Positions 9,905 through 60,400 of a stretch of 64,000 bases of DNA are shown here, in pieces. A program made the position numbers and the translations under genes. The notes under the pieces were generated by a model, which worked only from the letters and a program-made list of their open reading frames with translations, made no database searches and had not been told where the DNA came from. The stretch comes from Lutjanus erythropterus (lineage: Eukaryota > Chordata > Actinopteri > Lutjaniformes > Lutjanidae): the NCBI GenBank assembly GCA_020091685.1, contig CM034606.1:12137695-12201694 (forward strand). Reading direction: 5' to 3'. Numbering within the stretch: the first letter of the stretch is position 1; every line of letters starts with the position of its first letter.

Positions 9905-10107
9905 TCACTCTGTGCTCTCCTGGCCCAGCTCGATTTCCTCTTTGCCAAAAATGGCTTCTGGCACGCCTCCCTCTCCCTGGAACAGCTCCTCCATCAGCTG
10001 CTCTCCGGCGCTGCCGGCCCGTGATGCCCACAGAGCAGCGCCCTCCCTCAGGCCCAGAGAGCGTAGCAGCCGTGCGTAGTCCAAAAAGGCAGCCTCGATG
10101 AGTTTAT
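9905..10107 (-). CDS. wdr11: wdr11 terminal coding exon (w24)
   Basis: Encodes the last 66 residues and the TGA stop (9905-9907). It begins in phase with AAACTCATCGAGGC read as K-L-I-E, followed by [20 protein letters not shown], which matches the conserved DYARSL...GA..FASKAG region of WDR11. The tail after EQLMEELF ([11 protein letters not shown] then an acidic [12 protein letters not shown] end) is longer than and unlike the mammalian end as recalled. The acceptor is not AG: the exon follows TTTGCAC, so it uses an AC 3' splice site. No AG lies between the upstream in-frame TGA and the exon start. Confidence 0.93.
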
Positions 10108-13100
10108 GTGCAAATGCAGGTCAAGGAGAACTCATTTTGGACATAATTTAGTCCAGCTTGTCAATATATTTTAGCACTATTTACTTATATGTTCCAGTAT
10201 AACGTTATTATGGACAGTGGAAATTTATCAACGGGCAAAAGTCAAAAAAGTGCAGGGAAATCTAATCTATGGTTGAAGTTACTGCACGTTTAATTTTAAA
10301 GTTAAGGCAAACATTATATTAATCAACGGCTTTTTAGGTTGCGGTTTTGCTAGCTTACCCAGAAAGTGACGAGACGACACAAAGCGAGCAAGTATGCACA
10401 TCAGGCAGGGAAAACTCTGTGATGCAGGATGTATGGCACCAGCCTTAAGTACCAAGTTTTTATGTTCCAAATGAAAAAGCTGAATAAATGAGTGAAGAAA
10501 CATAATGAATGCAGATGATTCCACACAGGGCACACGGGGTCACCAGATTTGAGAGACCCTGAGCTCTATTTTCCTGCTGGTTCAATGACAGAAGTACCAA
10601 ACATTCAGTTGCAATGCAATTTTTGGCAGTGGTCTATAATTTTTGTACTTCTGTGGTATTTTTCCTGGCTCCCACTGGACCTGTTTGCAATGAGTTGAGA
10701 GGCACAGCTGATGCTGTTTTTATACATTAAGCAGAGCAGTTACATTTTTATACTCAATTATGCATTTACTTGGGTTTTTCTCTCCACTCAGATCAGATCA
10801 GACTTTTTAATGCAAATGCAAGGAACTTTCTGCAGCTTTAGTGGGCATTTAAATCATTGAGGGTACGCTGAAGACTAGAAGGGTTATTTATAGGTTTTTG
10901 AAAAAAACTGTGAATCACAGCAACCATGGGAGCACACAATAATAATTGTGCACAAAAAATATTAGGCATGGGAGAGATTAGCTGCAGCCCCCTTGTTCAT
11001 GCACACCCACACGACCCATTGCATGATGGTAAACCGTATGTTACAGCCTTCATGGTGGAAGGATTTACTGAGGGACTGCTGTATTGACTGCATTGTCAGT
11101 TAGGTAAACTGAATGTATTCAGCCTCTTATCCACTCGTTTTCATTGCTGCTGGAGGTCACCAAAACTTCAAGGATTAGTGTGTCAAACACAGGATTGCGC
11201 CTAAAGCTCTTTTTGAACCACTTCATCTTGGTTTTACAATACATTTGTTACTCACCTTTAATCCTAAAAAAGTACACGTGCAACAAAACTGAAAAAAAAA
11301 GCATTAAGTCAGCCTGAAAATGATTTTTTTGTGCTCTCTTTAAAAGACAGCTTGGCCTTGCTCAGACTTAGTCTGCCCCTGGTCCAGTCTCCATAATTCA
11401 TAAAATACTTAGTGGCTACATGCCAGTTCAGACCAATAAACAAGCCAAAGGGGACGTGTTTAATTCAGTGAACGTTCAAGAATTATAAGTTTTCAGATGA
11501 AATATTATTTTAGGGTGAACATAATTTTCTTCATCTTTTCTCTGATCTTGTGTTTTGTGCAACAGTTTTGCCTTGTGGGGTTACTGTATTTCAATGTTGA
11601 TTATAATATATAAAACACATTTTCTAAAAGTTATCTTAATTACAAATGTGGCTGGTGAAACAGATTCATCCAGTAGTCAGCAGTAATTGATTTGTCAGCC
11701 TTTTGACAAGTCAACAAGATAATCTCAGCTGCGTCATACCAACATGAGACACTATGCTCTACCCTTGAAGTTAGACAGTAAAAACACATATTTACAGCTG
11801 AGACAAAAATGTAGTCTGTGACCAAACAACACCGTTTGACCTACAGGTACAGGTACTACTTTTTAGATGCCTTCTTTTTGTTCAGTATATATCTATGCTC
11901 GGGTGTGATAAAAGTCTAAAAGTTCTTTTCTGAGTCTGCAGCATAACTGAGCTCTTGGACCACAGTGTAATATTGGCCATCAGGAACATGTGAAATGTAG
12001 CACGATGTGCTCTGTGGAGCATCTAAATTGACCTTGATTGAGAAAAAGCTCTCCACTATCGAGTGCAGTTCTGTAGTAGAGATGGACAGAGTTAGTGGCG
12101 GAGCTAACTCTGGTTATAAATGGCCCTTAGAGTGCAGTAATGGGTTTTCAAAAAGGATATTGGATGAGTCGTTGGCCTCCATCACCCCATACTTCAGACA
12201 GGCTTCGATGAAGAGGGCGGCGCGATCAAAGTGCCTCATACTTCCCACAAGATAGAAGGAGGAAGAGAAAGACACAGGCAGAAGGAAGAAGTGAGAGCTA
12301 CTGTCAAAAGTCAGCATCATCCCTGCCTTGATGTCTGTGATACTAAAGCATCAACCCTGTCGTCCTGACGCCACTCTAATTCTGTGTGAGAGGCTCTGTC
12401 GCCTGGGGCGTCTCAGAACATGAGCTGTCAAGAAGGAGGAGAAGGAGACCCACAGCAGATCGATGCTGTGGTTAAAAATACCGGGTCCATATCGCACACT
12501 GCATGAAGTGTCCTTCAGGGTACTCAGGGAGAAAAGGAGTAGAGGAAACTCAAGTGTTGACGAGTGTGGATAAAAGAAGAGGTCAAGCAGAAAAAGTCAC
12601 AGGGCAAATCCTTTTTTTAAAAAATGGAATTAGAAAGAGTTGAAGAAAGAGAATCTTAATTCAGAGAATAAATGGCGAGATTCAATATTTTCATGGAAGC
12701 ATTTCTGTGAATGGAATTAAAACAAGATGGAGAAAACTACAGGGTTCATGTTTCTCATTTGAAAATTCAATCCTTTTTAAGACCTGAGTCTAACTCTCAT
12801 GTTTTTTAATCTCTGAATATATTCAGTCGGCTCATAGCAGCATCAGTCCTGGTTCTTACCTGTGGAGCATCTCTCCCACTTTGTAAAAGCAGCCCAGGCT
12901 GAGCAGCACCAGGATGGCTTTGGACTTGTGGTTGACCTGCGGGGAGCACAGGTGCTCTGCCCAGCGCTTCAGCACATCTGAGCTCTCTGCTGGGTTCAGA
13001 CGCACCTGGAAACATACACAACACGCGAGGCAATGAAACTCAAACTGCTGCAAAGGTGATTTCTTAGTGGTAATGTGGAGTGTTAGAGTTGTTTCTAACA

Positions 13101-28100: not shown

Positions 28101-31100
28101 CACAACATTTTTAAAGAAAAATCTAAATTAAACAAATGTATAAAATGCCCAACAATGCACAAACAGATGTTTTAGGGAACTGGAGTTATTATACTGTAGA
28201 TGTAGTGCAGTAAAACTTTTAGCATTTACCTGGACAAACGAGCTTTGAGGTCCCAGAAGTTGAGATTGCCATCCACATCCCCGAGCACCAGAGTGTCACC
28301 TTTCCAGGCAATGCAGGCGATACTGCCCATGCTACCCTGAAACACAGGAGAAATGCATGCATTCAGATAGAGGAGCGAGAGGGAAAATGAGAACGCACAG
28401 CAGCATACTTGTCCCCTGCACAAACATTCCTCAGTAAGTCACGAATTTGAAAACTCCTACTGGTTGCACGGAAGTCCTTGAAGAGGTTCAGAACGGTGCA
28501 GCTAGAATCTTAACTAGAACCAGAAAAATTGATCATATCACACCGATCGCAGCTTCACTTCATTGGCTTCCTGTTAATGTCAGATCAGACTTTAAGGTGC
28601 TTCTGATGACTTACAAAATCGTAAATGGGCTTGCTCAATCCTATCTCGCTCGTCTCATTAAACCTTATAATATGTCCCAACCCGAGCTCTTTGCTCTCAG
28701 AATACTGGGCTCTGTGTCCCCAGAGTCAAAAACAAGTCAGCCAGCGGCAGGGCTTTTTTTCTGCCCTGCCCCGTTCCTCTGGAATAACCTCCCTGCTATC
28801 ATCAGACATGCTGACTCTAGTAATTATATCCATATTTCTCCAGATAATTAGAATAAGATTGTAACTTTTCTAACAACCGTAATGTTAATGTTGGAAATAT
28901 ATTGCATGTCTGTCCATCCTGAGAGGGGGATTCTTCCATCTTTTCCCTGTTAAAAGGGTTTTTAGGCGGAGATTTTTCATATTCTTTCGAGGGTAGACAG
29001 GATATGGGATGTCACACACTGTGCAGATTGTAAAGCCCCATGAGGCAAGATGTAATTTGTGATCCTGGGCTCTACAAATAAAATTTGTCTTGACTTGACT
29101 AATGAAATAAACCTTAATATGTATTTACCAGTTCTGACAGCATGTCTTGATTTTAAGTATCTTATTTACAGACACAAAATTCAAAGAATTTGCCATCTAC
29201 TAGCGTCACCAGTTACTACAGGCATTATACGCCATGATGCAACGCAAATTGCAACAGAAACGGTTTCAACTGTTCTAAACTCAGAAATATGAAGTTTATA
29301 ACACATCAAAAGTCGCAGGAAATCCAAGGGCAGGAAAGTACTGAAAAATACTGAAATCAATGCCAAATTTCCATTGCCGCCCATGTTAAAAAAAAAGATT
29401 TATTCATGTCATCCTGTCTGATGTCACACCAAGGGTTCAGTGCCATCATGTTTTACATGAGAAATGCAGCTGGATGCAGTACGGTGCATGTGCAAAAGGA
29501 AATTTGGCAGTCACATGGTAAAAAAAAAAAATAATACAAAAGTGCCATTTTAATCTGAATTAAAATAGGCTAATTCTGTGTTCAATTTATGTTAATCACT
29601 GCAAACATTTGTATGTACTTGTGCAAATTTATCTTGCCATGTATACAAGTATAAATACCAATTTGGTTATTTTGAAATAAATTATTATTTTGAGAAGCAA
29701 AAACTAGAGTATGGTACAGAAATGCCTTTGAACCACCACTTGGATCTCTTAGGACCTTTAATTTGTTATAGGGGCAACTTTTATGAGCAATAAAGATTTA
29801 ACAGATTTTCTGTTGTAACTTGTATGAGGTCCACCCTCTCTCTCTTTTTTGATTTGACTTTCCCTTCATACAATTCCTTATCACTTTGTTTCCTCTCATT
29901 AAGAACACATTCAGGACACAAAATCTGTTTGTTTATGTTCCAGTCCGCGTGAGGTTGGCCGACAGGTGTAGGTAAAATACCTCAACTAACCTGTGTCAGT
30001 CTTTAGAAATCATCAGATCATCCTCCATAGAATTAGAGGATAGTCATAAAAACAGTGATGTTGTGATGTTAGCAAGTTACGTCTTTTTTACAGCCAACCA
30101 GTGGGTAGTTAAAAAGTGCAAGAATAAAAGCATTAAAACCACCTACTCCCTCTACCATAAAAACAACATACTTTCTGGCACTTAATGTTTGAGTGCGAAT
30201 CCAAACAGGAGAATAAATTAAAAATATCTCTGGCAGCTGAGTGGTGAACAAGCACGACACTGGAGTTTAAATCAGGCTGCGCCATGAGACAGAGTGATGA
30301 TGTGAAGACATTAAGTGTCAGCTCACCTTCGGCGGGTACACAGCGGAGGATAGGACAAAACTTTTTAGGAGAGTTTCCGTCAGTTTCCTGACAGAGATAT
30401 GAAGATCTTCTATCATCCTGAAAGGACTGTAAAACCTTTTGGGGTATGCAAATCTGTGAGCAATGAATCTGCAGCCGTCACGAAGATAAGGCTTTAAAAT
30501 CCCCAGGTAAACCTCCAGTGTCTGTCTGTCGGGTGCGAATAGATGCAGGTAGTGAGGGAGCAAAACACAGACTGTTTAACAATCCAATCTGCTGCTCAGA
30601 AATGGACCTGGGAATATTATAAACTATCGTGGATTTCCTTTAGAAATACAGAGCAAGAAATGAATGAATAAAATGAATTAAACAGAAATGGATATACATT
30701 AGTGGCAAAGTATGAAATTGTACTTTCTACTTCTTCTTATTTCCTTTGTTGACAGGAGATGTGAGCAATTAACAAACAACTGAAGGTGCAACTCCATAGC
30801 ATGACTCAGCTTGACACAATTACAAGTAACAACTAGATAATGAGAACATGAAAGCAAGAGAACAAGAAAGTTCCTGCCAAAAGACTTCTCAAACAATAGC
30901 TTGAATTTCATGGCACTTAGGGAGAAAATGGATGCTCGGATAATTAACAATCAGAGGGTTCTTTGTTAGCGGTGACACGTCGACTTGTAAAGCAAAAACA
31001 TCCTGCTGCTACGATATTCCCACCGCATCTTTTAGTCATGCGTGTGAAAAGAAATCCTGTCTTCACTAACAGCTTGTTTCTGTTCACCAGCCCGGACACC

Positions 31101-57200: not shown

Positions 57201-57419
57201 AGTGCTCCATCAAAGGGAAAGCAGGGCTCATCAACGATAGCTAAACTCTGTGCACTCCCTACCTGCACTCCTCACTGAGAGCACTAAATTTAGCTCAGAG
57301 GATTACGTAGTTTAAAGTCAGTTTAAGTCACCTTAGAAAGTATTCAAACTTTTAACCATTACCTCTCCCTGCGATTTCAGCCAACACCTACAAAATTTTA
57401 ATGTGGCTTTGCAGAATTA

Positions 57420-57491
<72 letters not shown>

Positions 57492-60400
57492 CCTGGGATT
57501 AGCAGCAGCCTTGCCAGTGTGGGCCTTGAGCTCCCACAGCATGACTCTGCCATCACTGACCATTAGCGCGGCGTTGTTTTCATTGACGGGGCAGATCACC
57601 ATGCGATATGGCCGGACTGTCTTGGTGACTCGGATGGCATCGCACTGAGAACGCAGGTCGTAAACAAGCTCGTGGACATTCTGCTCAGGGTCTGAAGGAG
57701 TGGTGGGCACAGCAGTAGAGAAATAGAAGGCGATAAGAGTAGTAAAAAGGTAGAAAGACCCAGTATGAGAGGGTGGGGTGGGGGAGTGGAAAAGAAAGAA
57801 GAAATGTGGGAGATAAAATTGTTGAACACATGAATGGAAGGGGACACAAACAAGGAGATAAAAAAAGAGAAATATGTGGGAGAAGACATTGAGTAGATGT
57901 TAATAATAAAGGGAATAGAGACAGAAAGAGGAAGGGAAGCAGATAAGAGCGAGAGAAAGTGAGATTTGGAGAGCGGGGAAGACAATTTTTGAACATGTCT
58001 GAGAGGAAAGAAGAGGAGCACAGCAGAGAGATACAGAGAAGGATTTAAAGAGATAAGAAGGAAAAAAGCGAATGCGTGAGGGACCCACAAAAGGAAATGG
58101 CAGGAAAAAAGAAAAATGCAGCATGGAAGCGATACCAAGGCGAGTAAGTGAGGGAGATTCAGCCAGACAATGGACTCCCATTGGCCTATAGCACTAAGCC
58201 AAAGATAAATGAGACACTAAGAGTCTAAATGCCCACTGGAGCATAGAGAGAGGCTACAGGCTCTGACTGCAGTGCAGCTTGGCTGAATAGATGATGACTG
58301 GGGGCGGCACGGTAGTGAGAGTGGTTTGTGAGTGAGTATAAGACAACTAGCATGTGCTCCACGTGCGTGCGTGTCTCTACGAAGAGGTTTCATACCTGCT
58401 GCTTCCTCCGGATTGGTAGTGGAGCGGCACACTCGGAGAGTGATACACCCGTTCTCATGGAGACAGTAGAGGGCGTCCCGCTGAGCACACGGAATCACCT
58501 AAACACAGAGAGCCAAAGAAACAGGTGATGATGAGTGTGTGTTCATGATCAGGTTTACCAAATGTCCATTGAAGACACTTTCAACACGCCCCAGTTCACA
58601 TCCCCTCCTGTTTCAATGGAAAAATGAAGTGAACTTAGTGGGATCAACTCTGATTGATTTCTTTATTTCCAACATTATCTGTAAACACATGGCAACATAT
58701 CATAAACCAGCATTAATAACAGTTATGATAATCATGATACGGATCACAATGTGCTGATGTACTGCACTTTAGGGGTGGGTGGCTCAATCCCAAAATACTA
58801 ATACTTCCAACACTATGTCTCATTTTTGAAGATTGATTCTGGCATCAGTAGGATCGATACAAGAAAAAGGGATCATTTTCAGCTTCTCTCTTCTACATCG
58901 TGCCGTTTATATTCCATCCAAAAGCAAAACTGTCTGTGCAAACCATGTTCATTTGTTTAGTGCATGTGCTCCTCGTTCCTCCACTGCTCTTGTCTGTTCT
59001 GTGCACTCAAACAAATCATGTGTTGTGCATGCGCAGCATACCAAGGTGCACACCCTGACCATTTTAATCACATCAATCACACACCGGGATAGCTGCATGA
59101 AAGAAGAGCTTTGATGGAGGCATTTCACAACTGCGAACGAAAACCTGTGTGGTAGGAAGGCTTTTCACTATAAATATGTTTAAACATTTAACAAACATGT
59201 CATGAAAGGGAACTGTAACAGAAATGAAGAGAGGTGGAGGGAAAGCCTTTGCACACACACCCTCATCACAGGGACACATTGTTGAGTCTTTTCAGAGCAG
59301 CTCAGGTCGGATTATCCAGGTATATAGTAGTTTAATTAATAATTTAGTCAAATTGGATCTTCAGCATTGATTAATGTTAAATTTTCAAACTGTAATTTCC
59401 CATCATTAGCTGTTACTTTAGCAGAAATGTATTATCTAAATGAATTACGAACATACTTCAAAGCTAAAATAGGAAAATGGCCAAATATAATAACCTTTTA
59501 GTGTAACTATGAAAAGACTGCTATACGTAAGCAACTGAAGATGTATTCACCCCTTAATAATAACACACTGCTCTCCCCTACATGAAAATATATAAACACC
59601 TTTCAATAATAAAAAGCATCAGTATCATTATCTGTGATCCTAAATCATTTGGTTTCACAACCAAACAATTTTTATGGTATCGCCCACGTCTCCTGCAGTA
59701 ATCTGCAGTAAGTCTGCAGGTATCTCTGATGATTTGTAAAAAGTTGAGCCTACAACTTTCAGTCGATCCATGTGAGTTCCATTTATATACCGCCCGCTCT
59801 TCCCCAACTCACTTTCCCTCTGCTCTCCAGGTGGCGCCTATATGATGCATGCTGTTACATAACAACAAGGGCTGAGGGGAAGTACTACTAACACAACTGC
59901 TAATGAAACACAGCTTGAGTGTTGAACAGGTGGCGCTTAAGTTTGCTCTTTGCACTGCATCACTGTGTCAATCCATCTGTTCCACAGACTGAGAAGTCTG
60001 TAACATATTTACCAATATGTACTGTGCATGTGTAATTTTGTTTGATTTAGTACAAACATAAACAAAAGTGTAACCAAGCCATAAGCCCTTATGTTTGTAA
60101 TGCCACAGGTGATGTCTTCACATTGCCTCTTTTATCCAACCACCAGTCCAAAACCCAAAGAGATTCAATTTACAATAAGAAAAAAACTAATACACAAAGT
60201 GGAGGAGATGGAACTTTGGGAGGTTTATGGATTTTGTTTGAAAAGTGACTTTTTAATTGACAGATACATTTTCTGTCAACCATCTATTGAGTGTTTCTGG
60301 ATAAAATAAACTTATTAATCATTAAGTTAACAACTGGGCGCATGTGATGATGAAAATATTCACTTTAAAGTAGTGCTGTCAGGCGATTAAAAAAATTAAT

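Follow-up and report, generated by a model that had tools for sequence, protein, structure and literature searches.

The human WDR11 gene presumably has 29 exons, and because of this exon count we equate the intron designated 'introns 28-29' with its last intron. In human cells, WDR11 'introns 28-29 (U12) and 27-28 (U2)' have been used as lariat test cases (PMC11039992), and the question raised in the preliminary description of our locus, whether this intron had been catalogued in other vertebrates, is answered by the available text of that paper, in which it is in print as U12-type. The fish intron analysed here lies in the same gene, is likewise the last one on the exon count assumed above, and shares the U12 type. 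The terminal dinucleotides of the human intron are not given in the available text of PMC11039992, and its likeness to an AT-AC intron comes from the database proteins P0214 and P0223 described below. AT-AC introns account for 22% of the U12-type introns of zebrafish in the available part of PMC7367187 (Table 2), and the last wdr11 intron belongs to the same class. According to the accessible text of PMC8280824, AT-AN (A-type) minor introns show more retention and depend on CENATAC; the present intron shares the AT-AC termini with them, and a gene of the CENATAC family (CCDC84) is found in this genome. Switches between the AT-AC and GT-AG subtypes have also been described, the examples in the available text going from AT-AC to GT-AG (PMC2831892, PMC3584512), and such switches have been called rare (PMC3584512). 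In the library searched, WDR11 was linked to U12-type or minor introns, the minor spliceosome or AT-AC in PMC11039992 only, and nothing was found there for BRWD2 with U12 or for zebrafish wdr11 intron retention.

The window analysed here is a stretch of 64,000 nucleotides from the genome of Lutjanus erythropterus (937.6 Mb in 444 contigs), and wdr11 is located on its minus strand, with the 5' part of the gene extending beyond the window. With the human protein as a guide, 24 exons were placed between 63542 and 9905. Models were ranked by protein score, to which U2-like sites added a bonus that AT-AC pairings did not receive. The joined exons encode 1001 residues with a single, terminal stop, and query residues 1-977 match positions 238-1215 of the PDB WDR11 chain (1754.6 bits). 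The odd look of the last intron might be blamed on a pseudogene or an assembly error, in favour of which nothing was found; with 24 exons in one open frame of 1001 residues that matches WDR11 throughout, and with identical splice sites recurring in other genomes, such an origin is scarcely conceivable. Among the 23 modelled introns in the window, 22 are GT-AG and one, the last, is AT-AC, so that the earlier statement that all other introns are GT-AG is true for wdr11, the gene to which our count applies. By protein score alone, AT-AG ends would do better by one point at intron 2 (90 vs 89). The sequence GTATCCTT starts none of the other 22 chosen donors. The donor of intron 3 (57492, minus strand) leads directly into a CA repeat (57417..57492). 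An open reading frame at 28438..28851 on the plus strand sits within intron 11 and presumably resembles the tail of a LINE reverse transcriptase; it gave no Pfam match, and a search of the window against Rfam at gathering threshold gave no match either. The features of the last intron and its flanking exons are as follows (a slash marks a splice boundary).

12161..12240, minus strand: exon w23, the penultimate coding exon, ending in ...GAC TCA TCC A/, with a GT-AG intron upstream at 12859..12241
10108..12160, minus strand: last wdr11 intron, U12-type AT-AC, phase 1 (signals, frame, pairing test, spliced relatives P0076, P0077 and P0078)
12152..12160, minus strand: U12-type 5' splice site ATATCCTTT, 9/9 to the consensus RTATCCTTT; /AT ATC CT in vertebrate-type proteins
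10120..10127, minus strand: U12-type branch site TCCTTGAC, branch A at 10121; pairs with the genome's own U12 snRNA
10108..10109, minus strand: AC 3' terminus (sequence; last intron base C in vertebrate-type acceptor proteins)
9905..10107, minus strand: coding part of the last exon w24, /AT AAA CTC ATC ... to TGA (frame, PDB alignment, spliced relatives)

On the minus strand, exon w23 ends in ...GACTCATCCA at 12161 and the intron, 2053 nt long and in phase 1, starts with ATATCCTTTTT at 12160; its 3' end reads ...TCTCCTTGACCTGCATTTGCAC at 10108, and exon w24 starts with ATAAACTCATC at 10107. With the preceding exon base the donor is A/ATATCCTTT, and the exact U12-type donor claimed for the end of w23 is indeed present at 12160-12152. 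U12-type branch sites follow approximately the consensus TTCCTTRAC and lie about 10-20 nt before the 3' end of the intron. Here CTCCTTGAC agrees with it at 8 of 9 positions, and the described branch site TCCTTGAC occupies 10127-10120, where the A at 10121 stands 13 nt before the final intron base, within this range; the AC terminus reported earlier is found at 10109-10108. The predicted join at 12161/10107 reads TCATCCA/ATAAACTC, and its translation aligns gap-free to WDR11 in PDB 8xfb/24id (query residues 1-118, E 4e-48), which bears out the proposed split Asn codon and the conserved frame that it restores. Slips of the junction by one or two bases (TA-CA, AT-AT) yield an identical mRNA, and cDNA alone cannot place the junction to the base; we read it as AT-AC because the U12 donor consensus singles out this option.

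AT-AC introns are also spliced by the major spliceosome, as in sodium-channel genes, and the available texts of PMC2831892 and PMC3584512 make clear that the class is not defined by AT-AC termini alone. However, the sodium-channel introns have G at position +5 (PMC2831892, available part), where the wdr11 donor has C, and the 9/9 donor is accompanied by a U12 branch site whose A lies 13 nt before the intron end. In addition, the available text of PMC11039992 calls the human intron U12-type and reports that its lariat came down with RBM41. A U2-type AT-AC intron is therefore extremely unlikely at this place, and the U12-type reading is retained.

Alternative splice-site pairings of five end types were searched, the donor lying anywhere from 30 nt inside exon w23 to about 150 nt beyond it and the acceptor from 300 nt upstream to 60 nt downstream of the first full w24 codon, and the products were scored against the spliced relative P0078. 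The search gave 39 stop-free in-frame pairings, among which the AT-AC pairing of the preliminary description has the top score of 294, and the next AT-AC pairing reaches 275. The best AT-AG pairing scores 262 and loses KLIE, and the best GT-AC pairing scores 199. A U2-type intron with GT-AG or GC-AG ends and slightly shifted exon ends might instead join w23 and w24, and several named database models do splice here otherwise, for example the Poecilia latipinna model P0003 (...GVMEAAFLDF) and the Periophthalmus model P0002, which reads ...GVMESLTFVAHKLI. However, the best GC-AG pairing scores 226 vs 294 for AT-AC, with 10 residues lost, and the best in-frame GT-AG pairing 209, with 13 residues lost; only two GT-AG options in the range searched are stop-free, and no GT-AG pairing tried there yields the conserved WDR11 protein. 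AG occurs just twice within the terminal 60 nt of the intron, at distances of about 50 and 24 nt from the 3' end, and the AG closer to the exon runs into an in-frame TGA, as had been noted before. Spliced fish-type contigs use the full junction, and a shifted U2-type intron is very improbable.

These spliced relatives are P0077, with 345 aa encoded on a contig of 1615 nt, and P0078, with 347 aa on one of 1385 nt; both map onto eight exons between about 22290 and 9908 of the window, a span of about 12.4 kb. Since the contigs are too short to contain those introns, they must be spliced transcripts or copies of one. Both show DSS/N/KLIEAAF across the w23/w24 junction, P0078 spanning exactly 12161/10107, and the same kind of junction is present in P0076 and P0013 (DDI/N/KLIG and DST/N/KLIG).

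Taken alone, none of the motifs is rare, and the chance argument rests on their meeting at one exon pair. On both strands of the window RTATCCTTT was found 4 times vs 1.17 expected and TCCTTRAC 2 times vs 4.38 expected, while a branch site with CAC at the right distance was found once vs 0.83 expected. By our own arithmetic, the chance of donor and branch motifs coinciding at a single exon pair that has no GT-AG solution would be roughly 1e-7 to 1e-8.

The genome also encodes components of the minor spliceosome: a single U12 gene scores 128 bits, U4atac is present in two copies (97 and 94 bits), and the CENATAC family PF14968 (CCDC84) has four exonic matches, all on one contig. The motif GUAAGGA, at nt 18 of the genome's U12 RNA, could form 7 pairs with UCCUUG-A-C, one of them G-U, leaving the A bulged. 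The intron would be handled in the manner of other minor introns: the U11/U12 di-snRNP would recognise ATATCCTTT (by U11) together with TCCTTGAC (by U12, with the branch A bulged), U6atac would then take the place of U11, and splicing would join ...TCC A/AT AAA CTC..., completing the Asn codon and the conserved C-terminus of WDR11. As an AT-AN minor intron it should depend on CENATAC, too.

Predicted proteins that were translated through splice sites from genomic contigs served as a readout of the homologous splice sites. Depending on the last exon base, translation through a donor AT ATC CTT gives x-I-L with N, D, H or Y as x, and translation through a donor GT ATC CTT gives x-I-L with S, G, R or C as x. 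Since the class (x-I-L) is defined by I-L, the independent test is the split between N/D/H and S/G/R/C only. The analysis covers 234 proteins from the matches listed (75 of 75, best 120 of 151 and best 120 of 148), which were grouped as fish-, bird-, mammal- or non-vertebrate-type by the best-matching reference sequence and not by organism name. Among them 143 reach the junction (98 x-I-L, 24 spliced-looking and 21 neither), and the other 91 stop short of it or were not placeable.

The comparison with homologous introns that had been proposed as a check gives, among the matches listed, an AT donor in vertebrate-type proteins including mammal- and bird-type ones: /AT ATC CT is read in 68 of the 68 placeable vertebrate-type x-I-L proteins (N 44, D 21, H 3), whose best references are all fish, bird or mammal. 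Those with names include turtles (P0014, P0016), a bird (P0045), a bichir (P0081) and fish (P0001, P0080, P0087). In the proteins P0214 and P0223 (EVTEDT/D-ILCK, with the exon end EVTEDT as in the PDB chain) the implied donor is G/ATATCCTTTG, like that of the fish intron, and exon w23 ends in G in mammal-type proteins whereas it ends in A in the present gene (Glu vs Asn split codon). The remaining 30 of the 98 x-I-L proteins among the matches listed are GT-type (S 23, C 4, G 2, R 1; P0089 to P0219). Their best reference is non-vertebrate-type in 29 of 30, and P0219, which matches a bird reference best but is divergent, was counted as non-vertebrate-type. Five of the 21 'neither' proteins match a vertebrate reference best, namely P0002 and P0003, which are mis-modelled, P0230, which shows N-I-L one residue later, and P0182 and P0234, which look non-vertebrate and read G-T. 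Codon position and phase 1 are common to the fish-, turtle-, bird-, mammal- and non-vertebrate-type proteins among the matches listed.

The acceptor was read from 64 vertebrate-type proteins that, by a text rule, are not spliced from w23 (among the matches listed). A split codon that begins with C means that the last intron base is C rather than the G of an AG terminus, and this is the case in 59 of the 64 (H 31, Q 25, P 2, R 1), where R could also start with A and P0081, the gene model of Polypterus, contributes one Q. In all 59 the preceding residue has at least one possible codon ending in A, which an AC end needs. The other five are the mis-modelled P0001, P0003 and P0053, the non-vertebrate-type P0015, and P0018, which is truly spliced and was missed by the rule.

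Among mammal-type proteins the branch motif CCTTRAC is encodable in 25 of 26 (19% of shuffles), 24 times at 11 nt and once at 15 nt before the end. It is encodable in 11 of the 24 fish-type proteins (10/23, shuffles 4%, and 1/1, shuffles 17%) and not encodable at the usual place in the other 13. In ten of these 13, the position taken in the window by the TGA of TTGAC is occupied by W (6), I (3) or S (1). The fish-type test is biased and the misfit is partly one of ascertainment, because copies with an in-frame TGA at this place cannot read through. CCTTRAC fits none of eight bird-type proteins, five of which are too short to tell, and CTTRAY fits 3 of 8. In six fish-type proteins (P0019, P0021, P0024, P0026, P0027 and P0034) W (TGG) stands in place of the branch-site TGA of the window. 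The usual branch A seems to be absent in these six, as judged from the translations, and they may use another A, or the branch site may have moved.

All these observations, namely the donor, branch site and terminus, the failure of the GT-AG alternatives tried, the spliced fish-type contigs, the conserved sites of vertebrate-type proteins and the minor-spliceosome genes of the genome, uphold the earlier reading of a U12-type AT-AC intron. It has a U12-type donor and branch site with no good U2-type alternative, its position and phase are conserved in orthologs, the genome encodes U12, U4atac and the CENATAC family, and the start in AT and end in AC, with codon-level support in relatives, assign it to the AT-AC subtype. 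In this fish, the last wdr11 intron is almost certainly of the U12-dependent AT-AC kind and the ortholog of the U12-type last intron in human WDR11, and we infer that the fish uses this splice site and that its use depends on CENATAC.

The intron seems to be older than the vertebrates, because in non-vertebrate-type proteins the same codon and phase show a GT donor that is U12-like. The distribution of 68 AT vertebrate-type vs 30 GT non-vertebrate-type proteins among the matches listed suggests a switch of subtype, hinting at a change from GT-AG to AT-AC on the vertebrate stem. If the GT-type proteins are true and represent multiple outgroups, this would be the simplest direction, opposite to that of the published examples; such a change of the WDR11 last intron was not found in print. 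In seven non-vertebrate-type proteins (P0089, P0095, P0167, P0168, P0170, P0172 and P0173) a whole intron of 54-66 nt is read through. In all seven this intron ends before a codon starting with G (Ala), and it is therefore GT...G there. CCTTRAC fits 5 of the 7 (shuffles 6%) and CTTRAY 6 of the 7 (shuffles 27%), and P0176 is without the short insert, which agrees with splicing at this point. Of the 21 'neither' proteins, six (P0129, P0175, P0178, P0180, P0183 and P0233) can be read as /GT AAG or /GT GAG at the same codon, and this apparent U2-type donor suggests that some non-vertebrate lines underwent a conversion from U12 to U2. In a tree of 53 proteins and 47 columns, with no outgroup root, six AT-type and two unlabelled vertebrate-type proteins fall on one side of a branch with support 96/74, below the mark for a safe branch, and 29 GT-type proteins fall on the opposite side in several separate groups. 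The tree fits a single change of subtype and gives no direction. It is possible, and we propose it tentatively at slightly below an even chance, that early animals had this intron as U12-type GT-AG, that a single change to AT-AC on the vertebrate stem added WDR11 to the slowly spliced, CENATAC-dependent genes in vertebrates only, and that the intron became U2-type in some non-vertebrate lines.

Among the matches listed, 13 named vertebrate models run past, across or skip the end of w23. Two splice the junction right (P0010 Notothenia and P0079 Poecilia formosa) and 11, from fish, turtles and a bird, are wrong or stop (P0001, P0002, P0003, P0004, P0014, P0016, P0045, P0080, P0081, P0087 and P0097); the count omits P0109, which is not interpretable, and P0043, P0046, P0053, P0054, P0056 and P0057, which are without the w23 end, and 11 of 13 is no error rate, as the searches favour short, broken models. 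For this fish the annotation of the wdr11 C-terminus is settled, and several database models are wrong at the junction. The last wdr11 intron is an ancient, conserved and largely ordinary feature, mostly already known, and its recovery demonstrates that a reading of raw sequence can find a true minor intron. A regulatory role can be put forward as a general suggestion only, by analogy with the work on AT-AN introns in the available part of PMC8280824. If true, the change from GT-AG to AT-AC on the vertebrate stem would be a natural subtype switch with a testable dependence on CENATAC.
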